Assembly: GCA_903873805.1 (NCBI GenBank)
Contig: CAIQQB010000143.1
Span: forward strand, 1-64,000
Length of the DNA stretch: 64,000 bases
Source of the DNA: an uncultured Opitutia bacterium
Lineage (GTDB): Bacteria > Verrucomicrobiota > Verrucomicrobiia > Opitutales > Opitutaceae
Reading direction: 5' to 3'
The notes under the pieces were generated by a model. The model searched no databases, was not told where the DNA came from, and saw nothing but the letters and a program-made list of their open reading frames with translations. This document shows, piece after piece, positions 37,844-54,390 of the stretch (position 1 is the stretch's first letter; every line of letters starts with the position of its first letter). Position numbers and translations under genes: made by a program.

Positions 37844-40033
37844 TCAGGACCACTTGAGGTCGGTGGCGCTGAAGGGGAGGGCGCGGATGCGTTTACCAGT
37901 GGCGGCGAAGATCGCGTTGCACACGGCGGGGGCGAGCGGCGGGAAGGCCGGTTCACCCAAGCCGGTGGGGTCGTAGGCGGTCTTGAGGAAATGCACCTCG
38001 ATCTTTTCCGGGGCGTCGGCGATCCGCAGCATCGGGTAGTCGGCGAGGTTGTTTTCCACAATGCGGCCCTTCTCGAGGTTGAGCGACTGATAACCGCCGG
38101 CGCTCAAGCCATCGGTGATGGCGCCCTCGACCTGGTTTTCGGCGCTGGAGAGGTTGAGGATCTGCGATCCGACATCTATCGCGGCGACGACGCGGTTGAC
38201 CTTGAGGTCGCCCGCGGGCGAAACCGTGACCTCGGCCACGTGGGCGGCATAGCCCTGGTGGCAGAAGTGGAAGGCGATGCCCATGCCCTGGCCGCGCGGG
38301 AGCTTTTTGCCCCAGCCGGCCTTTTCGGCGGCGAGCTTCACGCAGCCGATCATGCGCTCATTGTTCCAATTGCTGTTGCCCAGCTTGGTGGCGAGCAGGT
38401 CGAGCTTGAACTCGACGAGATCGCGGCCCGAGGCATGGGCAAGCTCGTCGATGAAACTCTGGACAACCCACGCTGCGGTGCAGTCGCCCGGCGCGCGCCA
38501 GGCACCGGTCGGCACGAGTGAGGTCACCGCACCGGAGCGGGCCTGGTAGCCGGTCGCTGGCACAAAGCCACCGGGGAATTCGCCTCCCCCGCCACCACCG
38601 CGCCTGCCTCCTCCGCCGCCGGCGTTGGCGCTGAAGCCGACGGTGAAGTTGCGCCACGCGACAATCTTGCCCGCCGCATCGATTCCGCCCTTGAGGAAGT
38701 TAAAGCCGGCGGGACGGTAGAGATCATGATGCAGGTCATCCTCGCGCGACCACGTGAGCTTTACCGGCACATCGAAATGCTTGGCGATGGCCGCGGCGTC
38801 GCTGGCGTAGTCGGCGCTCAGCCGGCGGCCGAAGCCGCCGCCGCTGCGGGTGACATGGAGGGTGATCTGGTTGCCGTTCAGACCGAGGGCGGACGCGGCG
38901 GCCGAGCGGACGGCTTGCGGGCTCTGGGTGGGTGCCCAGACCTCGGCGTGGTCGCCCTTGAAGTGCACGGTGCAGTTCTGTGGCTCCAAGTTGGTGTGCG
39001 AAATATACGGGAACGAGTAGGCGCCCTCGAGGACTTTGGCCGCACCGTTGAAGATTTCGCCGTCGGCGTCGACCGCCTTCGCGCCGAGGGCGCGGGCCTG
39101 GTCGGAGAACGAAGCCCAGCTGTGGTCGGCGCCGGCGCCTTCGTTCAGCTGGAGCTTGAGCTGCTTGCGTGCGCTGAAAGCTGCCCAGGTCGAGGTGGCC
39201 ACGATGGCGACGCCGTTAACGGCGCGCTCATTGACCAGAAACACGTCCTTGACGCCGGGGAGCGCCTTGACCTCGTCGAGGTTGGCGCCGGTGACGGAGC
39301 CGCCGAAGACGGGGCATTTTTCCAGCACGGCGTAAAGCATGCCGGGCTGTTTCACGTCGAGGCCGAAGAGGCGCTGGCCGGTGGCGATCGCGGCGTTGTC
39401 CACATTGGGCACGCGGGTGCCGAGAAGCTTGAAATCCTTCGGATCCTTCAGGGGAGCTTTCGCGGGCACGGGCAGCGTGGCGGCCTTTGCGACGAGCTCG
39501 CCATAGGTGAGCATCTTCTTGTTGTCCGTCGCATCAAACACAGCGCCATTCATGGTTGTGCAGGAAGCGGCGGGCACGCCCCAGGTCTGGGCGGCGGCCT
39601 CGACGAGGACGGCCCGGGCGGTGGCGCCGAGCTGGCGAAGCTTGGCGTAGGAGGTGGGAACCGAGGTGCTGCCGCCGGCCCCATCGAGGGTGCCGGAGGA
39701 ATCGAGCGGCTCCGAGACGACGGTCACGGACTTCCAGTCCACGTCGAGTTCCTCGGCGAGGACCATGGGCAGGGAGGTTTTGATGCCCTGGCCGATCTCG
39801 GGACGGGACGAGTAAAGGGTGACGGCGCCATTCGCGGCGATGCGGATCCAGGAGCTGGGGGCGAACTCGGCGGCCGCGGCGCCGGGGGCGTCGGCGGCCA
39901 AGAGTGAGCCGGCGGACTTGAAATAAAAGCCGAGCATGAAACCGCCGCCGGCGAGCGCGGTGAGGCGCAGGAAGGAACGGCGGTCGACGGAAAACTCGGG
40001 GGCGGCGGGCGCGGGGGAGAGATTTTGGTTCAT
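37844..40033 (-). CDS. iorB: Molybdopterin-dependent aldehyde/isoquinoline oxidoreductase, large subunit (IorB-like)
   Basis: 729 residues. A Tat signal opens the protein ([20 protein letters not shown]), so it is exported folded to the periplasm. It has the layout of xanthine-oxidase-family large subunits of the IorB type: [22 protein letters not shown] (Moco region), [43 protein letters not shown] and [23 protein letters not shown], and near the end [21 protein letters not shown] and the catalytic-Glu segment [19 protein letters not shown]. Oxidises aldehydes or N-heterocycles with water as oxygen source. The FeS partner is encoded 12 bp upstream; there is no separate FAD subunit, as usual for IorAB. 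A Gly-rich insert ([15 protein letters not shown]) lies in the middle. Confidence 0.9.
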
Positions 40034-40045
40034 GGCGGGGTCTCC

Positions 40046-40498
40046 TTATTTGCCGGCGGCGGCGTGGATGGCCTGGCGGATGCGCAGGTAGGTGCCGCAG
40101 CGGCAGAGGTTGCCCGCCATGGCGTCGTCGATGTCGGCATCGGTCGGATGCGGTTTGTCCTTGAGCAGCGCGGCGGCGCTCATGATCTGGCCGGACTGAC
40201 AGTAGCCGCACTGGGAGACGTCGGTCGCGGACCACGCCTGCTGCACGGGGTGGGCGCCGTGGGGGTCGAGTCCCTCGATGGTGACGATCTTCTTGTCGCC
40301 GACAGCGGAGACCGGCAGCTGGCAGGAGCGCTGGGCGGCGCCATCGACGTGGACGGTGCAGGCCCCGCAGACGCCTTGGCCGCAGCCGTATTTGACACCG
40401 ACCAGATCGAGGTGGTCGCGCAGCACCCACAGCATGGGGGTGTCGGGCGCCGCGTCCACCGTGTGGCTCTGCCCATTGATGTTCAGGGTATAGTTCAT
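40046..40498 (-). CDS. iorA: [2Fe-2S] subunit of molybdenum hydroxylase (IorA-like)
   Basis: 150 residues. The N-terminal plant-type ferredoxin domain has [20 protein letters not shown] and RSCQLPV (four Cys of cluster I); the C-terminal helical domain has [11 protein letters not shown] and [11 protein letters not shown] (cluster II). It passes electrons from the Moco site of the large subunit. First gene of the pair, 12 bp before the large subunit. It has no Tat signal and is expected to be exported piggy-back with IorB. Confidence 0.93.
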
Positions 40499-40763: not shown

Positions 40764-42035
40764 TCAGGCCTTGAGGGGGAAGTAGACCGTGATGCGGGTG
40801 CCCTCGCCGGCGCGGGTCTTCACGTGGATGAGCCCGTGGTGGGTACGGACGAGGCGGGCGACGATGGCGAGACCGAGACCGGTGCCATGCTGGGCCTTGG
40901 TGGTGAAATACGGCTCGAAGATGCGCGGCAAGTTCTCGGCGCTGATGCCGGCGCCCTGATCGATGACGGAGATGGCGAGCAGGGGCGGACGGGCGGCGAA
41001 GGTGTCGTGGCCGACGGCGGCCTCGTTGAGCGTGGGGGTGGCCGGCGGGAGGGAGATTGGGGCTTCGATGCGGTCGGCGGTGATCCAGACGGTCTGTTCG
41101 CGCGGGGAGCTTTGGAACGCGTTGATCGAGAGATTCAGGAGAATCTGGATGAGGTCGGTGGCGTCGACGGCGGCAGCGCCGTCGGGCTCGAGCGGCTTGA
41201 CCGCGAGGCGGCTCCGGCGGGCGGCGGGGTGGACCTTGAGCAGCGTCTGCAGGTCGGCAAGGATCTGGTTGACGGGGAGCTGTTCGCCCGGGGCGTGGCG
41301 CCGGTGAATGAAGCGCAGATAGCGGGAGGCGATGGCGGTGCAGGTGCTGACCTGCTTGGAGATGGTGTTGACGTTGTCGCGGACCTCCTCGAAGTCGGCG
41401 CCGTGGAGGGCGGTGGCGGTCTTGAGGCGGGCCTCGAGGACCTCGACGTAGCCGCTGATAACGGTGAGGGGGTTGCTGATGTCGTGGAGGACGCCCGCGT
41501 AGATTTCCGTGGTGGTGCGGGCCATTTCCTCGCGGAGGGAGCTGTCGCCGAGGCGGCTGGAGAGGTCCTGGAGCCGCTGGGAGGTGGCGGCGAGGCTCTC
41601 GGAGATCTTGCGCAGGTGGAGGGCGCGCGTGGCGGCCTCGCGGATGGTGGGCAGGTCGAAGGGCTTGCTCAGGTAGTCACAGGCGCCGAGGCGGAGGGCC
41701 TGGCGGGCGGTCTCGATGGTCTCGTAGGCGGTCAGCATGAGCACCTCGATCTTGGGGTCGACCTCCTTGAGGGCGCGGAGCACGTCGATACCCGAGGTGC
41801 CGGCCATGCGGATGTCGAGGATTGCGATGTGGACGGGATGCGTGCGGGCGTACTGAATCGCCTGCTCGCCGGACTCCACGGCGTGGACGAGAAACTCGTT
41901 CCGGAACACCATGCGCAGCGAATGCCGGGGGCCCTCCTCGTCGTCAACAACCAGGAGGGTGTAGCGCTCGGGCGCGGCGACGACGGGGGCCGCCGGCGCG
42001 TCAGAAATGACGGGCGAAGGAGAGCGCGAGGGCAT
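40764..42035 (-). CDS. Receiver-histidine kinase hybrid (REC + HisKA/HATPase)
   Basis: 423 residues from ATG 42035; the frame stays open to 42224, but there it lies antisense-like inside the FadL gene and is low-complexity. N-terminal receiver with VVDDEE, phospho-acceptor Asp74 (IAILDIRM), Thr102 and Lys124 (LSKPFD) all present. After a helical linker comes a kinase with His184 (GVLHDISNPLTV) and an ATPase with NLSINAFQSS, VIDQGAGIS and GTGLGLAIV. No membrane segment. A REC domain ahead of a kinase core is the layout of PhcR-like regulators. The gene overlaps the end of the FadL gene by 35 bp and is third in an operon after a GAF-kinase and FadL. No DNA-binding domain, so output goes through phosphotransfer. 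Confidence 0.82.
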   Translation of the reverse strand: MPSRSPSPVISDAPAAPVVAAPERYTLLVVDDEEGPRHSLRMVFRNEFLVHAVESGEQAIQYARTHPVHIAILDIRMAGTSGIDVLRALKEVDPKIEVLMLTAYETIETARQALRLGACDYLSKPFDLPTIREAATRALHLRKISESLAATSQRLQDLSSRLGDSSLREEMARTTTEIYAGVLHDISNPLTVISGYVEVLEARLKTATALHGADFEEVRDNVNTISKQVSTCTAIASRYLRFIHRRHAPGEQLPVNQILADLQTLLKVHPAARRSRLAVKPLEPDGAAAVDATDLIQILLNLSINAFQSSPREQTVWITADRIEAPISLPPATPTLNEAAVGHDTFAARPPLLAISVIDQGAGISAENLPRIFEPYFTTKAQHGTGLGLAIVARLVRTHHGLIHVKTRAGEGTRITVYFPLKA

Positions 42036-43197
42036 TGGTGCGGTTGTGGTAGACGCCATCGGCGGACTGGAGGGAAGTGCTGACGGGGCTGCCGGTGACG
42101 GTGCGGTCGGCGGCCCAACCGTATTGGAGGGTGAGCTGGACATCGAAGCCGCCGAGGCGGCCGCCGGCGCCGAGGCCGACGAGCTGGCGGTTGGCGTCGG
42201 GAACGGCGGGATTGTAGGTGGCATTGGGGGTGGAGTTTTCGGCGTAGGTGTACCCGGCGCTCACGTGGAGGCCGTTGGAGAAAGTGCGGGTGACGCCGAA
42301 ATCGTAGAAGAAGCTGGAGCGCCAGTTGAGCACCAGGGCCTCGGCGGGCAGGGGGGCGTTGTTGATGAAGATCGTGTTGACGCGGTTCCAGTCCATCCAC
42401 TCGACGTCGGCCTCGACGTTCCATTCGGGGGCGGGGCGGTAGGAATAGCCGGCGATGATCACCTCGGGGTAGGTGAAGCGGGCGCTGGCGGGCAGCACGC
42501 CCGGGAACGGCGGGGAGGGCGTAAAGCTGGAGGTGCCGGTGAGGTTGCCGGAGTAGTTGCTCTGGTAGCTCAGGCCGAAGGCGTGCTGGGCCGAGGGCTG
42601 CCAGCGGAGGCCGGCGTTGAAGCTGACGGCGTAGTCGCTGCCGTCGAAGGTGAACACGCCCCCGAGCGGTGTGATGTCGCGGCTGAGGGTGGCGCTGAGG
42701 CGGTGGAACACTGGGCCGCCGCCGATCGACAGGGTGGGGGAAAGCTTGTAGGCGCCGACTGCGGCGATGGCGTAGTCGGTCTCCTTGGCGGAGGTGGCGA
42801 TGGTGTTGAAGCCGGAGGTGGGATTCCAGTTGGTCGCGAGGCCGAAGGGGACATAGCCGCCGATGCCGAAGGCGTAGTCCTTCCCCGGAGGGGCGTAGGC
42901 GTAATAGAACTGCGGCAGCACGTGGTCCTGGCGCTGCATCTGCACCGTGCCGTTGTACTCGGTCTGCAGCTCAACGACGTAGGCGCTGGCGGAGAATTCC
43001 TGGCCGCTGAGTTGGGTCAGGCCGGCGGGGTTGTAATAGATGGCGGCGGCCGAGTCGGCGGTGGCGGCGAAGGCGTTGCCGCGCGCGGTGGCATCGGCGT
43101 CCTTAAAGCCGGTCCGGGTGCCGGAGGCGAGGAGGGTGAGCGGGGCGAGGGTGGCGAGGAGACAGGTCAGACGGAGGGAGCGGGGTGGGGTGGTCAT
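42001..43197 (-). CDS. OmpP1/FadL/TodX-family outer-membrane transporter
   Basis: 398 residues from ATG 43197, which opens a signal peptide (LRLTCLLATLAPLTLLASG). The hallmark is the FadL N-terminus: SGTRTGFKDADATARGNAFAATADSAAAIYYNPAGLTQLSG, followed by a beta-barrel with alternating hydrophobic strands ending in the aromatic C-terminus (ALSFARHF). FadL-type channels let long-chain fatty acids or other hydrophobic molecules cross the outer membrane. It is placed between two histidine kinases (13 bp after one, 35-bp overlap with the other), which suggests the substrate is a signal rather than food. Start and stop are clear. Confidence 0.9.
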   Translation of the reverse strand: MTTPPRSLRLTCLLATLAPLTLLASGTRTGFKDADATARGNAFAATADSAAAIYYNPAGLTQLSGQEFSASAYVVELQTEYNGTVQMQRQDHVLPQFYYAYAPPGKDYAFGIGGYVPFGLATNWNPTSGFNTIATSAKETDYAIAAVGAYKLSPTLSIGGGPVFHRLSATLSRDITPLGGVFTFDGSDYAVSFNAGLRWQPSAQHAFGLSYQSNYSGNLTGTSSFTPSPPFPGVLPASARFTYPEVIIAGYSYRPAPEWNVEADVEWMDWNRVNTIFINNAPLPAEALVLNWRSSFFYDFGVTRTFSNGLHVSAGYTYAENSTPNATYNPAVPDANRQLVGLGAGGRLGGFDVQLTLQYGWAADRTVTGSPVSTSLQSADGVYHNRTNALALSFARHF

Positions 43198-43210: not shown

Positions 43211-45211
43211 TCAGGCCAGGGGGAGTTGAAGGATAACGTCGGGGTCATCGTTTGTGATTCGCGGGAGAACTTCAAGCTGTCCCGCGTGCTGTTCGATGAT
43301 GCGGCGGGCGATGGTGAGGCCGAGACCGACCCCGGTGCTGCGGGTGGTGAAAAACGGCTCGGTGGCGCGGGCGGCGACGGCCGGGGCGAGGCCCGGGCCC
43401 TGGTCGCGAAACTGGAGGCGGAGGCGGCCGGCACCCGGGGTCCCCCGTTCGGCCTGGAGCCGCACGCGGAGAAGGGCGGCGGGGGCGGACTGGAGGCCGT
43501 TGAGAAAGATCTCCTCGAACGCGTGGGCGAGGCTGGGGCGGTGGGCGCGGACGAACGAGCCTTCGACGTCACCCGAGAGTTCCAGCCGTCCCTCGACGGC
43601 GAGGGCGCGGCAGGCCCGCTCGAAGCATTCCTGGAGCAGGAGTGCGGCGGGCAGGACCTCGTCGGCGGCGCCCGGGGGCTGCGACAGGAACAGCATCTGC
43701 TCGGTGAAGCGCTGAATGCGGCTGGTTTCGCGGCCGAGGGCGGTCTTGAGGGAGGCGCGGAAATCGGGGCTCTCGTAGTCGGAGTCGAGCAGCTGGTGGT
43801 GGGTGGTGAGCGGGACGAGGGAGTTGCGGATCTCGTGGGCGAAACGTTTCGCGATCAGGGTCATCAGCCGGAGGTTGGACGCCTCGATCTCGGCGCGCTG
43901 GGCGGCCTTGATGGCGGTGAAGTCCTCCACCGTGGCCATGGCGGGCTGGGCGAGGCGGCGGCCGGCGCCGGGCAGCGGCAGCAGGCTGACCCGGTAGGTG
44001 CGGTCGGGATGGCGCTCGGAGCTGAGGAAGAACGGTTCGGTGAGCCGGCCCTTCTCGACCAGATCATGCAGGGCCGCGGCCAGCGGCGGGGGCAGCTCCG
44101 AAAAGTCGATGTCCTGGCCGGAGCGGGTGTCGCCGCGAAGAAACTGCAGGAAGGCCCGGTTGGTGTGGAGCACCCGGAGATCGGCGCCGACGACGAGGCA
44201 GCCGCTGTTGATCGCGCTCAGCACGTCGCCAAACAGCCGGTGGCTCGAGGAGAGCTGGTCGTGGAGCCAGCTGTTCTTCACCGCGAGGCCGAGCTCCTCC
44301 AGAAGGTGGTAGACCAGCTGCAGCTCGGCGTCGCTGAATGAGCCGCCGGTCACCCGGCCGCCGATGAGCGCGACGCCGAGGGTGCGCTCGCGGTCGTTGA
44401 CCGGCAGGGCGACCTGACAGCCGAGAATCTCAAATTCGCGCAAGATCTTCGGGTCGGGGAGCTCGGCCGCCGAGCCCCCGAGCGCATCGAGGCGCAGAAT
44501 CTGTCCGCGTTTGGTCACGTGGTGGCCGATGCCGGAGCTCCGCGTGAGCTCGATGCACTCCAGCAGGTCGCGGGGAATGCCGACGGCGGCGGCACAGGTG
44601 AGCCGCGCCGCCTCATCGGCCGGGGTGCCGGCGGGCTGGACGGTTGGCGGCGCCGTGTGCTCGAGGAAGATCGCGATGCGGTTGACGCTGAGAATTTCGC
44701 GCAGCTTCAGCACGAAATGCTGGGTGAACAGCTTGTAATCGAGGGAGTAGCCGAGCACCTGGGAGAAGTCGCGCAGCACCTCGAGGGCGGAGGCGGCCAG
44801 GGGCAGCGCCGCGACGGGGGCGGGGGCGGTCGGCGGCACGGCGGTTCGTGCGGGACTCTCGGGGAGGAGCCGGCGGGTGGCGGCGGTAAAGACGGCGGCC
44901 GTAAGCGGTGCGCTCAGGACCAAGTCGGCGCCGGCTGCATAGGCGCGGGCCTCGGTGGCGGCGTCCCACCCGGGCGCGAGGGCCACCAGGCCGAGGTCGG
45001 GCGCGGCGCTCCGGCTGGCGGGGATCAGGGGGATGACGTCACTGGCCTCCGAGCCGGTGACGATCAGCAAGTCGAAAAGCCCGGTGGCCAGCAGGCTGCG
45101 GGCGGACCCCAGATCGTCTTTGCGCACCACCTTGAAATCCGACGAGGTCAGGAGCGCGGCCGCGTGAGTGCTGGCAAGCGGATCTTCTGCGATGAGCAGG
45201 ATATGAATCAC
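43211..45211 (-). CDS. Sensor histidine kinase with degenerate receiver, GAF and PAS domains
   Basis: 666 residues. Residues 1-115 have the receiver fold (ILLIAEDPLASTHAAALL...) but the acceptor Asp is replaced (FDLLIVTGSEASD has Thr), so it cannot be phosphorylated in the usual way. About 145-320 is a GAF domain (FVLKLREILSVNRIAIFLEH), 330-440 a PAS-like domain (VLSAINSGCLVVGADLRVLHTNRAFLQFL), then the kinase with FAHEIRNSLVPL (His near 458) and ATPase motifs FLNGLQSA, FRDQGPGLAP and GVGLGLTIARRI. No membrane segment, so cytoplasmic. First gene of the operon with the FadL channel and the receiver-kinase hybrid, transcribed divergently from the LuxD-methyltransferase fusion. Confidence 0.85.
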   Translation of the reverse strand: MIHILLIAEDPLASTHAAALLTSSDFKVVRKDDLGSARSLLATGLFDLLIVTGSEASDVIPLIPASRSAAPDLGLVALAPGWDAATEARAYAAGADLVLSAPLTAAVFTAATRRLLPESPARTAVPPTAPAPVAALPLAASALEVLRDFSQVLGYSLDYKLFTQHFVLKLREILSVNRIAIFLEHTAPPTVQPAGTPADEAARLTCAAAVGIPRDLLECIELTRSSGIGHHVTKRGQILRLDALGGSAAELPDPKILREFEILGCQVALPVNDRERTLGVALIGGRVTGGSFSDAELQLVYHLLEELGLAVKNSWLHDQLSSSHRLFGDVLSAINSGCLVVGADLRVLHTNRAFLQFLRGDTRSGQDIDFSELPPPLAAALHDLVEKGRLTEPFFLSSERHPDRTYRVSLLPLPGAGRRLAQPAMATVEDFTAIKAAQRAEIEASNLRLMTLIAKRFAHEIRNSLVPLTTHHQLLDSDYESPDFRASLKTALGRETSRIQRFTEQMLFLSQPPGAADEVLPAALLLQECFERACRALAVEGRLELSGDVEGSFVRAHRPSLAHAFEEIFLNGLQSAPAALLRVRLQAERGTPGAGRLRLQFRDQGPGLAPAVAARATEPFFTTRSTGVGLGLTIARRIIEQHAGQLEVLPRITNDDPDVILQLPLA

Positions 45212-45361: not shown

Positions 45362-47062
45362 ATGACACCCGAAATCCAGGTCCGCCCGTCTGGGGCGATT
45401 ACCAGCGAACCGGTCATCTATCCGGGACGCAACGGGAAGGCGATCACGGCCATTCTCGACCATGCGCCCGGGGGCGATCCGTCCCGGTTTGTCGTGATGG
45501 CGCCGAAATACGGCGAAACGAAGAAGAACAACCTCCAACTGGCCTACCACCTGGCGTTGAATGGCATCAACGTCCTGCGGTTCGACTACACCAACCATGT
45601 GGGCGAGAGCGAGGGCGACATGCACGCGTTCACGCTGCCGGGGGCGGTCGGGGACATCCAGGCTTCGTTTGACTACCTGGAGCACCGGCGTGGAGTGTCC
45701 CAGGCCGGCCTGGTCGCGAGCAGTCTGGCGGCCCGGATGGGCATCCGCGCGGCGAGTCTCGACGCCCGCGTCAGCTACCTGATCGCCCTCGTGGGCGTGG
45801 TCCACGTGCAGCGCACGCTCCACACGGTCTACCAGGAGGACGTGATCAAGAACCATCTCGCGGGGAAGACCTGGGGCGTGAACGATGTGCTGGGCTTTGA
45901 GATTGATTTCGAAAATTTTCTCGCCGCGGCGGTGTCCAGCCGGCTGCACACGCTGGCGGGTACCTGCGCGGATCTGGCGCGGATCCGCGTGCCGGTGGCG
46001 ATGCTGGCGGCGCAGAACGACGCCTGGGTGGACCTGGCGGACGTGGAGCGGGTCATCAAATGGGCGCCCTTCGGGCAGCTGCACGCCATCCAGGACGCGA
46101 TGCACGAGGTGCGTGAAAACCCGCAGGCCGCGGAGCGGACCTTCCGTCAGCTGGTGCGCCAGTGCGTCAGCTGGGCCCACGACCGCGAATTCGCCGAGAG
46201 CGAGCTCGCGGTGCCGGACAAGAAGTCCTACGTGGCGCAGAACAAGATTGAGCGGGAGCGGCTCCGCCGGGCGGACACGAACCGGCAGAACGAATTCGAT
46301 TTCTGGAGCCGCTACCTGTCGAAGTACGAGTTCATGGCCGAAGTGGATGTATATAATTACTATATCAAGCTGGTCGGCGAATTGCTGGGCGTTTTTCGGC
46401 CCGGCGAGCTGGTGTTTGACGCGGGCTGCGGGAACGGCCTCTTCGGCGTCTGGGCGATCCGGCACCTACTGGAGCAGACGCAGCCGTCCCCCGATCCGCC
46501 GGTGGCCTACGTGGGGGCGGACCTGACCCACGACGGACTGCTGAACGCGCTGCAAAAGCACGCGCGGGCGGCCGGTGGCGCGCCAGGACCGGCCGGGGCT
46601 CCGGCCATGGGGCTGGCCTATGCGCAGATGGATCTCGACGCCTTTGGGCGGCCCGGCGGGGCGGACGACGAACCGGCCGTCGACTTTGCCGACAACACCT
46701 TCGACAAGATCTGCTGCAGTCTGCTGCTGTCCTACCTGAAGCAGCCCGACCGGCTGGTGGAACAGCTCCACCGCGTGCTCCGGCCCGGCGGGCGGCTGGT
46801 CGTGTCGAGCATGAAGCCGTTCTGCGATCTCTCCGAGATTTACCGTCGGTATGCGGCCCGGGCTCCGACGGAGAAGGAAATCGACTCGGCGCGGGGGCTG
46901 CTGGCCGCGGCCGGCAAGATCAAGGTCCGGGAGGAGCAGGGCATCTACACCTTTTTCCCGGCCGAGGAACTGGCGGCGATGATGGCGGCGGCGGGCTTCA
47001 CGCGGATAGAGGCCCATACCTCGTTCGGCAACCAGGCCAATGTGGTCTGCGGCATCAAGTGA
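45362..47062 (+). CDS. LuxD-like acyl hydrolase/transferase fused to SAM-dependent methyltransferase
   Basis: 566 residues. The N-terminal 310 residues follow LuxD (lux-specific myristoyl-ACP thioesterase/acyltransferase) over its characteristic stretches: LNGINVLRFDYTNHVGESEG, GLVASSLAARMGIR with the nucleophile Ser near 121 (LuxD has ASLSA), LIALVGVVHVQRTL, AAQNDAWVDLADV with Asp near 220, and MHEVRENP with His near 248; the whole triad is present. From about 320 follows a class I methyltransferase: LVFDAGCGNGLFGVW (motif I, about 350-364), YVGADLTHDGLLNAL (acidic residue for SAM ribose) and KICCSLLLSYLKQPDRLVEQLHRVLRPGGRLVV (motifs IV-V). I infer that it releases an acyl group and methylates it or a derivative. 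GTGA overlap with the next kinase gene shows coupling. Confidence 0.85.
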   Translation: MTPEIQVRPSGAITSEPVIYPGRNGKAITAILDHAPGGDPSRFVVMAPKYGETKKNNLQLAYHLALNGINVLRFDYTNHVGESEGDMHAFTLPGAVGDIQASFDYLEHRRGVSQAGLVASSLAARMGIRAASLDARVSYLIALVGVVHVQRTLHTVYQEDVIKNHLAGKTWGVNDVLGFEIDFENFLAAAVSSRLHTLAGTCADLARIRVPVAMLAAQNDAWVDLADVERVIKWAPFGQLHAIQDAMHEVRENPQAAERTFRQLVRQCVSWAHDREFAESELAVPDKKSYVAQNKIERERLRRADTNRQNEFDFWSRYLSKYEFMAEVDVYNYYIKLVGELLGVFRPGELVFDAGCGNGLFGVWAIRHLLEQTQPSPDPPVAYVGADLTHDGLLNALQKHARAAGGAPGPAGAPAMGLAYAQMDLDAFGRPGGADDEPAVDFADNTFDKICCSLLLSYLKQPDRLVEQLHRVLRPGGRLVVSSMKPFCDLSEIYRRYAARAPTEKEIDSARGLLAAAGKIKVREEQGIYTFFPAEELAAMMAAAGFTRIEAHTSFGNQANVVCGIK

Positions 47063-49155
47063 TCAGCTACTGCATATTCTCCTCCCTGATCAACGCCGTG
47101 GCCAGCCTGGTGCTGGGCATCGCGGTGTTCTCCAAGAAGCCCCGGGAGCCCAAGACCCTGATCTTCACCTGGCTCACGGTGAACATCGCCGTCTGGTCCG
47201 GCCTCTACTTCGGCTGGATGATGTCGCGCGAGCCCGGCACCGCGCTGATTTACTGCCGGGCCCTGTCGGCGGCGGCGATCCTCATCCCGGTCTGCTACTA
47301 CCATTTTGCCACGCGGCTGACGGGGCGGCCGCACAACCGCGAGGTGCTGGCGGGCTACGGGCTGGCGGTGATCCTGGCGGGGCTGTGCGCCACACCGCTG
47401 ATCGTGGCGCGGGTCGAGCCGGCGGTCGAATGGTTCCCAGTCTGGCCGAAGGCCGGCCTGCTATACCCGGCCTACCTCGGCTTCTTTTTCTATTATTTTG
47501 TCCGCGTGACGTGGCTGCTCGGGTCGGAGTACCGCCGCTCGGCCTTTCTGCGCAAGAACCAGCTCCTGTATGTGCTGGTCTACACGCTGGCGGGCTACCT
47601 CGGCGGCTCGAGCAACTATTTCCTCTGGTACGACGTGCCGGTGCCGCCGCTCGGGAACGTCCTCGTCGCCGTCTACATGATCGGCGTGGCCTACGCGATG
47701 ATCCGGTTCCGGCTGATGGACTTCAACCTGCTGATCGTGCGGTCGCTCAGCTACGGGCTGATCATTCTGGCGTTCGCCGGCCTCGAGGTGGTGCTGGCGG
47801 CCGGGCTGCAGCAGTTGCTGGGCGGCGGACCGCTGGAAATGGCGGCGCTGTTTCTGGCGGCGCTGGCCGCCACGACCCTGCTGTTCGGCTGGATGCCGCT
47901 GTGGCGGGCCCGGGTGGACCGCTTCCTTGAGCGGCGGATGCTGCGCGAGGCGGTGGAGGGCCGCAGCCGGCTGCGGCAGCTGACGCAGACGATCAGCACG
48001 CTGAAGGACGAGGAGAGCATTTTCCGCGAGACGGTGGGGGCGCTGGCCGAGGCGCTGGCGGTCGGGCGGGTGGCCCTCTACCTGCGCTTTGAGTTTGAGA
48101 CGGCGTTCAACGCTCATGCGTCGATCCCGCCGGGGACGCCGGCCCCGCTCGACGCGGAGGAGCCGCTGCTCAAGCTGCTGCAGGCGTCGCCGCATGCGGT
48201 CCTGCTGGACGAGCTGGCGCACAGTCTGGGCCCGGCCGACCGGGCCGCGATCGACCGGCTGCGGCAGGAGCGCCACATCGAGCTGGCGGTGCCGGTGCAC
48301 GCGGGGGCGTTTTTCTACGGCTTCTTCGCGCTCGGGCCGCGCAAGTTCGACGGACTCTACAGCGAGAACGACCTCTCGCTGCTGGAGGCGATCGGCCTCC
48401 AGGTCGGCTTCAACCTGCGTTCCCGCCAGCTGGAGCGGCGGGCCAACCAGGCGGAGAAGCTGATTTCGCTCGGCACCCTCGCGGCCGGACTGGCCCACGA
48501 GCTGCGCAACCCGCTGGTCTCGATCCGCACGTTCAGCGCCCTGATGGAGGAGCAGGGGGGCGACCCGGAGTTCCGCCGCGAGTTCCGCACGGTGGTGGAC
48601 CGCGACGCCCGCCGGATCGCGGCGATCGTGGAGAACGTGGCCGCGTTCGCCGAGAACACCAAGGTCAAGTTCAGCCCGGTGCAGATGGAGGACGTGATCC
48701 AGGCGGTCTACGAGATCGCCCGTCCGGAATTCGTGAGCGCCGGCGTGGCCTTCGTGGTCCCGGCGCCCGCCGGGCTGCCCCCGGTGCAGGGCAACTACAG
48801 CCAGATGCTCCAAGTCTTCCTCAATCTGTTCCAGAACGCCATCCACGCCCTCGCCGGCCGCCCCGACCCCCGGATCGAGGTCCGCTACCAGGTCCAGCCC
48901 GAGGCGGGCGGCGGCCACATCCTGATGGTGACGGTGGCCGACAACGGCGCGGGCATCGAACCGGCGGTGCGCCCGCAGATCTTCGAGCCGTTCGTCACCA
49001 CCAAGGCCACCGGCGACCGCCACCACCGCCGTGGGATGGGCCTCGGCCTCGCGATCGTCAAGCGGATCATCGAGGGCCACCGCGGCGGCATCGCCGTCAG
49101 CAGCGAGCCCGGCCGCGGCACGACCTTTGTCGTCCATCTCCCCTGCCAGACCTGA
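47059..49155 (+). CDS. Membrane sensor histidine kinase (multi-TM sensor, GAF, HisKA, HATPase)
   Basis: 698 residues from GTG 47059, which overlaps the stop of the LuxD-methyltransferase gene (GTGA). About eight hydrophobic helices fill residues 1-290, like the seven-TM histidine kinase N-terminal domain; this is a suitable site for sensing a membrane-soluble ligand. A GAF domain covers about 325-460 (FRETVGALAEALAVGRVALYL). The kinase core has LAHELRNPLVSI with His near 479, N-box FLNLFQNAIHAL, VADNGAGIEP and GMGLGLAIVKRI. All catalytic motifs are intact. A GAF protein with an altered receiver is encoded 2 bp downstream. The role as receptor for the product of the fusion enzyme is inferred from position. 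Confidence 0.87.
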   Translation: MISYCIFSSLINAVASLVLGIAVFSKKPREPKTLIFTWLTVNIAVWSGLYFGWMMSREPGTALIYCRALSAAAILIPVCYYHFATRLTGRPHNREVLAGYGLAVILAGLCATPLIVARVEPAVEWFPVWPKAGLLYPAYLGFFFYYFVRVTWLLGSEYRRSAFLRKNQLLYVLVYTLAGYLGGSSNYFLWYDVPVPPLGNVLVAVYMIGVAYAMIRFRLMDFNLLIVRSLSYGLIILAFAGLEVVLAAGLQQLLGGGPLEMAALFLAALAATTLLFGWMPLWRARVDRFLERRMLREAVEGRSRLRQLTQTISTLKDEESIFRETVGALAEALAVGRVALYLRFEFETAFNAHASIPPGTPAPLDAEEPLLKLLQASPHAVLLDELAHSLGPADRAAIDRLRQERHIELAVPVHAGAFFYGFFALGPRKFDGLYSENDLSLLEAIGLQVGFNLRSRQLERRANQAEKLISLGTLAAGLAHELRNPLVSIRTFSALMEEQGGDPEFRREFRTVVDRDARRIAAIVENVAAFAENTKVKFSPVQMEDVIQAVYEIARPEFVSAGVAFVVPAPAGLPPVQGNYSQMLQVFLNLFQNAIHALAGRPDPRIEVRYQVQPEAGGGHILMVTVADNGAGIEPAVRPQIFEPFVTTKATGDRHHRRGMGLGLAIVKRIIEGHRGGIAVSSEPGRGTTFVVHLPCQT

Positions 49156-49157
49156 CC

Positions 49158-50534
49158 ATGGAAACGCCCCCCGCCGTCCTGCCCGCCCCCGCCGCTCTCC
49201 GCGAATTGCGGCGGGCCTTCGCCCACGTGGCCGACTTCACCCGCTTCACTGAGACGCTGGAGCGGGCGCTCGGGGCCGCCGGCTTCTTTGCCGACGCCAG
49301 TATCCAACTATTCGATACAGAGACGCCGGCGGGGGTCTTCCGTCCCGGCCGGCTGGCGCTGCCGCTCGCCGGGGCCGGGCGGCTGCACGGCGTGCTGCAG
49401 CTGGCGGGCCCGGCCGGGACCCCGCGGCTCGGGGCGGAGGATCTGCACCTGATGACCGCCCTGGCGGGGGTACTGGCCGCGGCGCTGGACCACGCCGTGC
49501 GCCACGGCGAGCAGCAGCGCGACCTGGAGCTGCTGGCCTTCCTGCTCGACCTCGCGCCGGTCGGCATCGTGGCGGTGCATCCCGGCGGCCGGGTCGCCGT
49601 GGCCAACGAGCTCGCGCGGCGCTGGCTGGGCGCCGAGTTCGGCGACGCCGCCGCCCTCGCCGCGCGCCTCGCCCCGGAGCGGCTCGGCGTGGACTGGCGG
49701 GTCCAGCCGCGGTTCCACCTGCGGGTCGACGGCAAGCTCATCTACGGCGAGGCGCGGTCCTGCGCCGGGGCCACCGGGCAGCCGGGCGCGAGCGCCCTGG
49801 TGCTCGTCGACCTGACGGCGCAGCAGGCCCAGCTGCTCGACGGCCTCCAGCGCGAGCTCTACCGCTGCCGCTGGCTCGGTCTCAAGCTGACCTTTGTGCT
49901 GCTGGAGTCGCGCGTCCAGACGGCGGGCTGGCTGCAGGGCCTGCCCGAGATCCGCGCCCAGCTCCAGCCCGGCGAACTCGCCGGGCCCTACGACGCCTTT
50001 CGCGCCGGGCTGGTCCTGCCCGGCCTCGACCGGGCGGGGGCGCTGGCCCGGCTGCGCACGCTCGCGCCCGTGCTGCCGGCCACGGGCCTGCACATGGCGG
50101 TGGTGGTGGCGGCCGACCCGGTCGCGGAGCGGGTGCTCCACACGGCGATCGGTTCCATGCAGCCGGTCGAGGGTCTCCTCCGCCGTACCCTGCTGCTCCA
50201 CGACGACTACCCCGCGGTCAACGACATGATCGAGCGCGTCCTCCACCGCGGCTACGACGTGGTCAAGAGCTCGCATTACGCCGAGACGGAGGGGCTGCTC
50301 CGCACCCGCGCCTTCGACGGCCTCGTCACCGAGGTCGAGTTGCGCGAGGGCGGCGGCCTCGAGCTGGCCCGCCTCGCGCGGCAGCTCCAGCCCCGGATCC
50401 GGCCGTTCTTCACCACCATGGCCCACGACGTGCCCGGCGCCTCGGCGGACCCGGCGCTCGCCGGCCACGTGGTCATCCGCAAGCCGTTTGACATCGGCGG
50501 GCTGGAAGCGGCGGTGCGGTCGGCCTTGGGGTAG
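49158..50534 (+). CDS. GAF/PAS-like protein with C-terminal Asp-to-Glu receiver
   Basis: 458 residues. Residues 10-120 are GAF-like (FTRFTETLERALGAAGFFADASIQLF), 125-230 PAS-like (LAFLLDLAPVGIVAVHPGGRVAVANELARRWLG), the middle (230-330) has no clear family, and 338-458 is a receiver fold: LLLHDDYPAVNDMIERVL, then FDGLVTEVELREGGGLEL where the acceptor Asp is Glu, and HVVIRKPFDIGGLEAAV with the conserved Lys. Glu at this place often mimics the phosphorylated state. No output domain for DNA binding. It starts 2 bp after the membrane kinase stop, so it belongs to the same operon. The start of smc is 61 bp further on. Confidence 0.75.
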   Translation: METPPAVLPAPAALRELRRAFAHVADFTRFTETLERALGAAGFFADASIQLFDTETPAGVFRPGRLALPLAGAGRLHGVLQLAGPAGTPRLGAEDLHLMTALAGVLAAALDHAVRHGEQQRDLELLAFLLDLAPVGIVAVHPGGRVAVANELARRWLGAEFGDAAALAARLAPERLGVDWRVQPRFHLRVDGKLIYGEARSCAGATGQPGASALVLVDLTAQQAQLLDGLQRELYRCRWLGLKLTFVLLESRVQTAGWLQGLPEIRAQLQPGELAGPYDAFRAGLVLPGLDRAGALARLRTLAPVLPATGLHMAVVVAADPVAERVLHTAIGSMQPVEGLLRRTLLLHDDYPAVNDMIERVLHRGYDVVKSSHYAETEGLLRTRAFDGLVTEVELREGGGLELARLARQLQPRIRPFFTTMAHDVPGASADPALAGHVVIRKPFDIGGLEAAVRSALG

Positions 50535-50595
50535 CCGGGGGCCGCTTTTTGCATTTGCCGCGCGCGGGGGCCGTGTCTCAATCGCCAGCTCTTTC

Positions 50596-53500
50596 ATGTA
50601 TCTCAAGGCCCTCAAACTCCAAGGTTTCAAGTCGTTCGCCGATCCCACCACCCTGCGGTTTGAACCCGGCGTCACCGCCGTGGTCGGCCCCAACGGCTGC
50701 GGCAAGTCCAACATCGCCGACGCCATCCGCTGGGTCCTGGGCGAGCAGAGCGCCAAGGCGCTCCGCGGCGGCAAGATGCAGGATGTGATTTTCGAGGGCG
50801 CCGACACCCGCCGGCCGGCCCAGCTCTGCGAGGTCTCGCTCCTGCTCACCGAGTGCGAGGCGCAGCTCGGCCGCGAATTCCACGAGATCGAGATTATGCG
50901 CCGCGTCCACCGCGACGGCCAGGGCGAGTATTTTTTCAACGGCCAGGCGTGCCGGCTGAAGGACATCCAGAAGCTTTTCATGGACACCGGCATCGGCCGC
51001 ACATCCTACTCGATCATGGCGCAGGGCCAGATCGACCAGATCCTCTCGTCCAAACCCGAGGAGCGCCGCGCGGTGTTTGAGGAGGCCGCCGGCATCACCA
51101 AATACAAATCCTCGCGCCGCGAGGCGCTGAACAAGCTCGCCCTGACTGACCAGAATCTGGCCCGCGTTGCCGATGTCGTGACCGAGGTGGGCCGGCAGAT
51201 CGGCAGCCTGCGCCGGCAGGCGGCAAAGGCGCTGCGCTACAAGCGCGTCAGCTTCCGCCTGCGTCATCTCAGCCTCGCCCAGAGCGCGTTGCAGCACGCG
51301 CAGCTCGGCGCTGTCATTGCCGGCCTCGCGGAGCGCCTCACCGTGCTGCGCGCCGAGGCCGCCTCCCGCCGCGCCCGCCTCGACGAGGCCCAGGCCGCGC
51401 TCGAGGAGCGGAAGGCCGGCCGGTCGCGCCTCAACCAGCGGGCGGCCGACGCCCAGCAGGCCGTCTTCGACCTCCGCAGCCAGAAGGAGCAGGCGGAAAA
51501 CGCGGCCAACCTCGCGTCCATCCGCCGCGGCGGCCTCCAGGACCGTCTCGGCTCCTCTCGCGACAACCTCGGCGAGCTGGAGATGCAGCTGCGCGAACTC
51601 GCCGCCCAGGTGGACAGCGGCGCGCTGGACAAGCAGCAGCAGCTGTCGCTCCTCGGGACGACCGACGCCGTCTTTCAGAACCGCAACCGCGAGCTTACCG
51701 TCGTCGAGGGCGAGCTGCACCGCCTCGAACAGGACCTGCAGCAGGCGAAGTTCCAGCTGCTCCAGCTGGAAAGCACCGTGGCGCGCCTGCGTTCCGACTG
51801 CACCGGCCACGAGGTCGACCAGAAGACCTCGGCCCAGCGGCACGACGCCCTGGTGGCCGAAATCGCCGCCGTCCACGAGCAGCAGGCCGCCGTCCGCCAG
51901 GCCGCGACCGACCTGACGGCGAAGGCCGAGGAGGCCCAGGCCGCCCGCACCCGCCTCCACGCCGAGTCCATCGCCGCGCAGCAGGTGATCGCCGACCTCA
52001 CGCGCGAATTCCGCGAGGCCCAGCGCCAGCTGCAGGACATCGACCGGGGCCTGGCCCAGCGCTCGGCCCGCCTGAAACTTTTGCAGCAGCTCCAGGAAAA
52101 ATGGGAGGGGTTCGGCGAAGGCGCGAAAGCCTTGCTCCAGGGCCGGCTCGACGCGGCCCTGGCCGGCGTCAAGCCGGCTGCGCTCACCACCGGGCTGGAA
52201 GTGCGGCCTGAGGCCGGCAAGGCGGTCGAGGCCCTGCTCGGCGCGGCCGTCGAGGCCGTCAGCGTGGCCGACGTCGCCACAGCCCGGCGCGTGCTCGCGC
52301 AGCTCGCGGGCGAGAAGATCGGCTCGGTCGTGCTGCAGGTGACCGAGCTGGCGGCCCGGCCCGATGCGGCCGGGGCGGAGCTGCCGGCGTTCCTGCAGCC
52401 CGCCACCGCGGCGCTGGTCGAGCCGGCGCCGGGGCACCCCGCCGTGGCGCTGCTCGGCGCCTGCTACCTGGCGGACAGCCTGGACGCGTTTCTCGATTTC
52501 TGGAAAGCCAACCCCGGCTTCGGCTTCCTCGCCGTGGCGACACGGCAGGGCGACTTGGTGGACCGGCGCGGCCTCGTCTACGGCGGGCACCACAACAAGC
52601 CGGCCAACAGCATTGTGCAGCGCGAAATCGACCTGCGCGAGACCGCCCGCGCGCTGGCCGCCGAACAGAAGAAGCACGACAAGCAGAAGGCCGCGATCGA
52701 CGCCCTTGGCGCCCGGCTCACCGCCGCCGAGGCGGCCCTCGAGGCCAAACGCGCCGAGGTGCTGGCCGCGACCCAGCACGGCTCCGCCGCGCAGACCGAG
52801 CAGAAAACCGCGCAGCGCTCGCTCGACGAAGTGACCCACCGCCTCCAGCGCATGGAAGGCGAGCGCGCCGCGCTGGCCCACGCCCGCGAGGAGGCGCAGG
52901 CCCGCTTCGCCCGGGCCCAGACCGGTCTGGCCGACGCCGAGGCCCAGGCCGGCGCCCAGCGCGGGAAGATCACCCAGCTGGAAACGCGCCTCATGGAGAT
53001 CCGCACCGACCGCGACGTGAAGCGCGACTCCCTCGCCCAGGCCCGCCTTGAGCTGGCCGAGCGCCGCCAGAAGGTCGAGGTGCTCGACCGCGGCCTCGCC
53101 GACATGGAGAAGCGCCGCGCGCAGATCGCCGAAATTCTTGTCCAGCGCCAGCAGGAGATCGAGACCTGGACCGAGCAGGTCGCGACCCTCGAGCAGGAGA
53201 GCGCGGCGCAGCGCGCCCGGGCCGGACAGATCGCCGGCACCCTCACCGTCGCGCAGGAACAGGTGGAGAAGGTGCGGGCCGAATTGGTCGAGGTCGAGCG
53301 CGGCATCAACGCGGTCGAGACCGAGCAGCAGGGCCTCCGGTCCGAGGCCGACGCCGCGCAGGCCGAGCTGGGCCGCGCCGAGGTGAAAGAGGCGGAGAGC
53401 GTCTCGCGGGCGCAGTTCCTCGCCGAGGACGTCACCCGCGAGTTTGCCGCCGACATCGCCACGCTCGACTGGCAGCAGCTGCTCTGGCATGCGGACGACG

Positions 53501-54390
53501 ATCCGCCCGACCTGAAACCGCTCGATCTTGAGGAGGAGGAGGAAGCCGCCGAACCGGAGACGAAACCGGAGGGCGAACCCGGGGCCGCCCCGAAACGCCG
53601 GCGCAAAGCGAAGGCCCCGCGCGGTGAACCGACGGAGGCCGATCTCGCCGCCCTGGCGCAGACGGACTGGGCGGCGGTCAAGGCCGAGGTCGATGCGCTC
53701 CGCCAGCGGCTCGGCGCCATGGGTGCGGTCAACCTCGTCGCCATCGAGGAGTACGCCGAACTCAAGCAGCGCCACGATTTTCTGCGCGCGCAGAGCGAGG
53801 ACCTGACCGGCGCCAAGGCCGAGCTGCTGCGGACGATCGACGAGATCAACCGCACCTCGCAGGAGCAGTTCCAGATCACCTTTGAGCAGATCCAGAAGAA
53901 CTTCGTCTACACCTTCCAGACCCTCTTCGGCGGTGGCGTGGCCCGGCTGGAGCTGATCATGGCGGAGGACATCCTGGAGAGCGGCATTGAGATCGTCGCC
54001 CAGCCGCCGGGGACCAAGCTCAAGAACATCACCCTGCTCTCCGGCGGGCAGAAGACGCTGACGGCGGTGGCGCTGCTCTTCGCGCTCTATATGGTGAAAC
54101 CCTCGCCTTTCTGTCTGCTTGACGAACTCGACGCGCCCCTCGACGAATCGAACATCGGCCGGTTCACCGACCTGCTGAAGAAGTTCGTCAGCGAGTCCCA
54201 GTTCATCATCATCACCCACAACAAGCGCACGGTCTCCGCGGCCCAGACGATCTACGGCGTCACGATGGAGGAGCGGGGAGTGTCGAAGACGGTCTCGATG
54301 CGCTTCAACCACGAGCGGGGCGAGCCGGAGGCGCACCCGACCACGCTGGCCGAGGCTGTGCGGGCCCCGGCCGCGCCGGCCCCCGCCTGA
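50596..54390 (+). CDS. smc: Chromosome segregation protein SMC
   Basis: 1264 residues from ATG 50596 (MYLKALKLQGFKSFADPTTL, the universal SMC start; the open frame to 50488 overlaps the upstream gene). Walker A VGPNGCGKSN at 30-39, long coiled coils, the hinge near 500-670 (WEGFGEGAKALLQGRLD), then the second coil, the signature LLSGGQKTLTAVALLFAL near 1145 and Walker B FCLLDELDAPLDESN near 1172. It forms a dimeric ring with ScpA/ScpB that loads at parS sites and organises the chromosome. An unusual charged linker (LDLEEEEEAAEPETKP followed by KRRRKAKAPRGEP) interrupts the C-terminal coil at about 975-1015. The TPR-like gene follows after 10 bp. Confidence 0.96.
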   Translation: MYLKALKLQGFKSFADPTTLRFEPGVTAVVGPNGCGKSNIADAIRWVLGEQSAKALRGGKMQDVIFEGADTRRPAQLCEVSLLLTECEAQLGREFHEIEIMRRVHRDGQGEYFFNGQACRLKDIQKLFMDTGIGRTSYSIMAQGQIDQILSSKPEERRAVFEEAAGITKYKSSRREALNKLALTDQNLARVADVVTEVGRQIGSLRRQAAKALRYKRVSFRLRHLSLAQSALQHAQLGAVIAGLAERLTVLRAEAASRRARLDEAQAALEERKAGRSRLNQRAADAQQAVFDLRSQKEQAENAANLASIRRGGLQDRLGSSRDNLGELEMQLRELAAQVDSGALDKQQQLSLLGTTDAVFQNRNRELTVVEGELHRLEQDLQQAKFQLLQLESTVARLRSDCTGHEVDQKTSAQRHDALVAEIAAVHEQQAAVRQAATDLTAKAEEAQAARTRLHAESIAAQQVIADLTREFREAQRQLQDIDRGLAQRSARLKLLQQLQEKWEGFGEGAKALLQGRLDAALAGVKPAALTTGLEVRPEAGKAVEALLGAAVEAVSVADVATARRVLAQLAGEKIGSVVLQVTELAARPDAAGAELPAFLQPATAALVEPAPGHPAVALLGACYLADSLDAFLDFWKANPGFGFLAVATRQGDLVDRRGLVYGGHHNKPANSIVQREIDLRETARALAAEQKKHDKQKAAIDALGARLTAAEAALEAKRAEVLAATQHGSAAQTEQKTAQRSLDEVTHRLQRMEGERAALAHAREEAQARFARAQTGLADAEAQAGAQRGKITQLETRLMEIRTDRDVKRDSLAQARLELAERRQKVEVLDRGLADMEKRRAQIAEILVQRQQEIETWTEQVATLEQESAAQRARAGQIAGTLTVAQEQVEKVRAELVEVERGINAVETEQQGLRSEADAAQAELGRAEVKEAESVSRAQFLAEDVTREFAADIATLDWQQLLWHADDDPPDLKPLDLEEEEEAAEPETKPEGEPGAAPKRRRKAKAPRGEPTEADLAALAQTDWAAVKAEVDALRQRLGAMGAVNLVAIEEYAELKQRHDFLRAQSEDLTGAKAELLRTIDEINRTSQEQFQITFEQIQKNFVYTFQTLFGGGVARLELIMAEDILESGIEIVAQPPGTKLKNITLLSGGQKTLTAVALLFALYMVKPSPFCLLDELDAPLDESNIGRFTDLLKKFVSESQFIIITHNKRTVSAAQTIYGVTMEERGVSKTVSMRFNHERGEPEAHPTTLAEAVRAPAAPAPA

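Follow-up and report, generated by a model that had tools for sequence, protein, structure and literature searches.

What does a bacterium gain by joining a LuxD-like hydrolase to a SAM methyltransferase in one chain, and by encoding that chain directly in front of a membrane-bound sensor kinase? The locus that raises this question lies in a 64,000-nucleotide stretch of DNA from an uncultured Opitutia bacterium (the window). The gene, which we call LM, and its parts are as follows.

45362..47062, + strand: LM, a LuxD-like alpha/beta hydrolase and a class I SAM methyltransferase in one chain (Pfam, PDB and structure matches; 40 further loci)
45395..46186, + strand: hydrolase domain of LM, aa 12-275 (1tht alignment, conservation, fold match)
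45722-45724, 46019-46021 and 46103-46105, + strand: codons of the LM triad, S121, D220 and H248 (1tht alignment)
46349..47059, + strand: methyltransferase domain of LM, aa ~330-566 (Pfam, separate model, fold search)
46418-46438, + strand: SAM motif DAGCGNG of LM, aa 353-359 (Pfam, conservation)

The LM reading frame is intact (566 aa, with an ATG start and a TGA stop). In the N-terminal half, residues 58-253 match the LuxD family PF02273 (Acyl_transf_2; E 1.6e-22), and the score of 80.6 bits (gathering score 20.3) places the protein in that family. Vibrio harveyi LuxD (1tht) is the best sequence match among solved structures, both for the single sequence (E 5.5e-18) and for a 41-sequence profile of the LM family searched against the PDB, with E 4e-32 for 1tht and 3e-12 for the next protein. 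In the single-sequence alignment, with positions counted by hand, Ser121, Asp220 and His248 of LM are paired with residues 114, 211 and 241 of the 1tht chain, which we take to be the LuxD triad (Ser114, Asp211 and His241). The serine is kept in all 39 homologues that cover it, and the aspartate and histidine in 41/41 each, bearing out an earlier note on this DNA that had placed Ser (ASSLAAR), Asp (QNDAWVD) and His (MHEVRENP) at the LuxD triad positions. An AlphaFold2 model built from the family alignment has 2 folded domains (mean pLDDT 84, pTM 0.77), and its residues 12-306 fit the LuxD fold, with 1tht as the best PDB match at Z 30.7, the next protein at 27.6 and many esterases further down the list. 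Together with the Pfam matches to both halves, this confirms that LM is a real fusion, as the note had proposed, of a LuxD-type thioesterase fold with a complete triad and a SAM methyltransferase. The fusion is no chance event, since 40 more loci can be aligned with it at 41-62% identity.

LM is not LuxD proper, scoring 81.8 bits against the cut-off of 420 for the LuxD equivalog NF052253. LuxC (PF05893) has no match in the same genome, although the same search matched 9/14 control genomes, so that LM has no fatty-acid reductase partner; a role in bioluminescence or fatty-acid reduction was therefore rejected. An exosortase-associated hydrolase (TIGR03100) and PrsK were also considered and gave weak or generic matches only.

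The C-terminal half (residues 332-549) matches the Pfam families Methyltransf_23, 11, 12 and 31 with E-values from 1.6e-12 to 4e-9. D353, G355, G357 and G359 within DAGCGNG are invariant among homologues, in agreement with the note's reading of this stretch as the SAM motif, and the domain combines this glycine-rich motif with a Rossmann fold, as a class I SAM methyltransferase does. Its substrate is far less clearly indicated. A fold search returned fifty unlike enzymes at Z 17-20.6, tied among many substrates, and natural-product and quinone methyltransferases are among the resemblances; no fatty-acid carboxyl methyltransferase is evident among the listed structure matches, which excludes nothing. 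In the PDB profile search, the C-terminal carboxyl methyltransferase LahSB ranks first for this half (E 4.6e-9). LM falls below the cut-off for the Mtf2 fatty-acid O-methyltransferase (NF045825; 19.1 versus 400 bits, E 6e-4), and an Mtf2-type reaction is possible despite this score. The comparison of halves proposed in the note thus held for the LuxD fold and yielded no assignment to the fatty-acid O-methyltransferases, a shortfall that we count against the signalling reading given below. The note had also suggested a route to a methylated product without release of free acid. This part is unsupported, since a LuxD-type triad hydrolyses a thioester to the free acid; channelling between the two halves is possible.

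With the LM family profile, we searched 84,980 species genomes and obtained 42 LM loci, most of them full-length, all in records labelled Opitutia/Opitutae, Opitutaceae, Opitutales, Puniceicoccaceae or Verrucomicrobia; the remaining matches are methyltransferase fragments. Searches among relatives and within the class agree, and among these genomes the fusion is found only in Opitutia (Verrucomicrobiota). No full-length relative was seen in 398 Proteobacteria genomes, where the best matches are separate LuxD-like proteins of ~310 aa and hydrolase proteins of ~410 aa, and tblastn over 72,556 plasmid records matched a single plasmid, at a LuxD-type acyl transferase. In 2 metagenome-assembled genomes (MAGs), the fusion gene is interrupted by an in-frame stop (L102:7370-9160) or split between frames (L106:7977-9684), through sequencing error or as a pseudogene. 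The MAG B12_G4 has 2 copies of the module (L087 and L090; LM 79.6% identical), with a separate HKd and HK (described below) for each copy, reflecting either a real duplication or 2 strains.

What, then, does the fusion work with? Downstream of LM on the same strand lie the following features.

47059..49155, + strand: HK, a 7TM (HisKA_7TM)-GAF-HisKA-HATPase sensor histidine kinase, 698 aa (Pfam; 34/34 testable loci)
47059..47062, + strand: 4-bp GTGA overlap of the LM stop with the HK start (40/41 homologous loci)
49158..50534, + strand: GR, a GAF/receiver-like protein of 458 aa directly after HK (Pfam; 29/30 loci)
50524..50540, + strand: terminator-like hairpin closing the LM-HK-GR operon (consensus scan only)

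Counts for HK, GR and the neighbours listed further below took in only loci with enough flank. The LM/HK overlap is exactly 4 bp in all but one of the 41 loci, the shared bases being GTGA or ATGA, an arrangement that predicts translational coupling. The phospho-accepting His480 of HK is invariant (35/35). A sigma-70 promoter scan gave no match. Beyond the hairpin, at 50596-54390 (+), an SMC-type chromosome segregation ATPase was recognised by eye.

Among 57 relatives, 10 genomes carry both the fusion and HK, and one additional genome (G001) has HK; these counts are not independent because the genomes are related. The additional genome has intact HK and GR (L151:2106-5885), together with a C-terminal remnant of the fusion (aa 506-559) that lies inside a contig. 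Loss of a synthase with retention of its sensor is familiar from quorum-sensing systems, and this genome looks as when a sensor has outlived its synthase; ordinary enzyme decay would look identical.

Upstream, on the opposite strand, are 3 further genes.

43211..45211, - strand: HKd, a divergent soluble histidine kinase, 666 aa (Pfam; 33/36 loci)
42001..43197, - strand: FadL/OmpP1/TodX-family outer-membrane transport protein, 398 aa (PF03349; 25/34 loci, same place)
40764..42224, - strand: RH, a receiver-histidine kinase without DNA-binding domain (Pfam; 27/31 loci)

HKd consists of a degenerate receiver-like N-terminus followed by GAF, PAS, HisKA and HATPase domains; its phospho-His459 is invariant in 33/33 homologues and its receiver aspartate is not conserved. 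GR is a GAF/PAS-like protein with a receiver domain at its end, in which the phospho-Asp site is occupied by Glu392 (Glu in 30/32 homologues, Asp in 2). Judged from these residues, GR and HKd carry conserved pseudo-receivers. Among the proteins of the locus, only RH has an intact receiver; its receiver Asp137 and its kinase His247 are both invariant in 27/27. The start of RH is uncertain, with homologues starting near aa 85 (~41970) and the extended N-terminus running into the FadL gene. In 2 Puniceicoccaceae loci (L100 and L103), RH is found downstream on the same strand. The FadL gene scores 136 bits with PF03349 (E 1.7e-39; gathering score 29.7), which assigns it to that family, and it is the sole PF03349 match in the genome. 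Three loci (L091, L093 and L106) are without HKd, FadL and RH, and the core therefore consists of the fusion, HK and GR. An RH homologue (47% identity) is also present in a genome without fusion or HK (G010; L152:7000-8187), so RH may act outside this module. Directly beyond RH, at 37844-40498 (-), a molybdenum hydroxylase pair was seen by eye (an isoquinoline 1-oxidoreductase-like large subunit and a 2Fe-2S small subunit).

Three features that the note did not mention, namely the near-constant pairing with HK, the further two-component genes and FadL, suggest that the locus serves signalling and not bulk metabolism. We consider it slightly better than an even bet that LM is the synthase of an acyl-derived signal and that HK is its sensor. 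Several observations argue for this: the thioesterase fold with its triad and the methyltransferase fold with its SAM motif; the near-universal overlap with HK and the conservation of HK, GR, HKd, RH and FadL around the fusion; the co-occurrence of fusion and HK, including the genome that keeps the sensor beside a decayed fusion; the lack of a LuxC that could serve as reductase partner; and the fact that the only PF03349 gene of the genome belongs to this locus. The signal is probably a fatty-acid methyl ester. In the scheme we propose, a medium- or long-chain acyl group from acyl-ACP or acyl-CoA would be loaded onto Ser121 and the LuxD-like domain, given its fold and triad, would free the fatty acid. 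The fused methyltransferase would then methylate the released acid, most simply at the carboxylate. The product would be a fatty-acid methyl ester, which may carry a hydroxyl group like that of Ralstonia. The ligand could pass the outer membrane via the FadL-type channel, a role suggested by its family, and the 7TM architecture of HK would suit sensing in the inner membrane. From there, phosphate may flow via HKd, RH and the GAF/pseudo-receiver protein GR to further targets. The whole would resemble PhcBSRQ-like quorum sensing, except that the synthase itself would also carry out acyl release. The more specific proposal, of an Opitutia class of quorum sensing in which the LM chain makes a fatty-acid methyl ester autoinducer from acyl-ACP, with a dedicated FadL for its passage and a coupled 7TM-GAF kinase that reads it, one relative being sensor-only, is more tentative, and we put it at somewhat below even chances.

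FadL bears on the choice between signalling and its main rival, the sensing of environmental lipids. Import of long-chain fatty acids is the classical function of the FadL family, and the presence of such a gene in the same locus is an independent argument for a long-chain fatty-acid ligand. That ligand might also come from outside: FadL, present in 25 of the 34 loci, would import exogenous fatty acids or esters, the fusion would process or detoxify them and the kinases would sense them, with no self-made diffusible signal. Two separate kinases, one of them soluble, suit an imported compound, and the absence of FadL from the other 9 loci counts against the signal-synthase reading. However, strict translational coupling to a membrane kinase fits an endogenous ligand better, as do the core loci that have no FadL, and the conserved neighbours include no gene recognised as serving fatty-acid degradation. 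We therefore regard environmental sensing as unlikely, though it is the alternative that fares best.

It is also conceivable, and in our estimation rather improbable, that LM writes and erases a mark: the methyltransferase would make a methyl ester on a lipid or a relay protein and the hydrolase would remove it, tuning the sensor without acyl release. CheR/CheB and the PP2A methyltransferase/methylesterase are precedents, alpha/beta hydrolases include ester hydrolases such as the many esterases ranked below LuxD, and in the profile search the methyltransferase half is matched best by a carboxyl methyltransferase. Yet LahSB is one of many tied structural matches, and the hydrolase half is clearly closest to LuxD by both fold (Z 30.7 versus 27.6) and family profile (E 4e-32 versus 3e-12). 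The least probable alternative is that LM simply tailors a lipid or a secondary metabolite and is under the control of the adjacent two-component system by coincidence, since, for all the resemblance of its methyltransferase half to natural-product and quinone enzymes, no other biosynthetic gene was seen conserved in the locus, where the conserved partners are signalling proteins and FadL, and mere regulation needs no translational coupling to a sensor kinase.

Beyond the fusion itself, the important feature is the conserved locus around LM, with its putative synthase and sensor. In the open-access literature, we found no paper on this locus or on fatty-acid signalling in Verrucomicrobiota. 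If the signal-synthase reading is true, methyl-ester quorum sensing extends beyond Proteobacteria, an acyl-releasing step has been fused to a signal-making methyltransferase, and there is a class of ligands to test on 7TM-HisKA sensor kinases. The reading also gives a concrete hypothesis for a gene set that is uncharacterised in many genomes from fresh water, soil and sediment.

Several known systems share parts of this locus. LuxD (PF02273; 1tht) resembles LM in fold across the N-terminal half, in triad positions and in sequence, but is only 21% identical by structure alignment. LM differs in being fused to a methyltransferase and in sitting in a two-component context rather than a lux operon, in a genome without LuxC. 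Escherichia coli YnbC (b1410, 585 aa) has an alpha/beta hydrolase followed by a methyltransferase in one chain of similar length, so that a hydrolase-methyltransferase fusion as such is already known. Its gene neighbourhood is of phospholipid type (ynbA, ynbB and ynbD), unlike that of LM, and homology between the two was rejected (best E 0.16, misaligned).

A 7TM-HisKA kinase of Burkholderiaceae (e.g., WP_258285429.1) has a sensor region related to that of HK (28% identity over 219 aa) and adjoins a 4HBT_2 thioesterase-like gene in 5/5 loci (L155:7004-8933, L156, L158, L186 and L187), which are Burkholderia/Paraburkholderia plasmids and 2 further genomes; 2 of the loci have an LqsR-like response regulator. 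This thioesterase is of the hotdog type, unrelated to LM and unfused, the kinase is without a GAF domain, and no LM-related methyltransferase was found at these loci. The pair is possibly a separate, undescribed acyl-signalling module. The constant thioesterase-like neighbour supports thioesterase-derived ligands for HK-like sensors, and with it the signal-synthase reading. Several Proteobacterial loci that combine an HK-related kinase domain with an LqsR-like regulator were left aside for their resemblance to Lqs-type systems.

A parallel in described gene composition, and a further argument for the signal-synthase reading, is the PhcBSRQ system of Ralstonia and Cupriavidus. The Ralstonia phc operon encodes the methyltransferase PhcB, which makes methyl 3-hydroxymyristate, the sensor kinase PhcS, PhcR with a receiver and a histidine kinase, and the receiver protein PhcQ (PMC8578825); in a survey of Proteobacteria, the cluster was restricted to Betaproteobacteria (PMC10653808). 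A Phc-type search with the LM methyltransferase profile, covering 150 genomes around a Burkholderiaceae-like genome, showed no methyltransferase beside a kinase among 30 matches, which we count against the signal-synthase reading. The LM locus has the same kinds of parts, namely a methyltransferase, a membrane sensor kinase, a receiver-kinase that has no DNA-binding domain, and a receiver protein, and differs in its fused thioesterase, extra soluble kinase, GAF domains, FadL and phylum. PhcB is, to our knowledge, a methyltransferase without a LuxD-type domain. An acyl signal synthase with its sensor kinase is a known kind of system, of which the LM locus would be a thioesterase-fused form.
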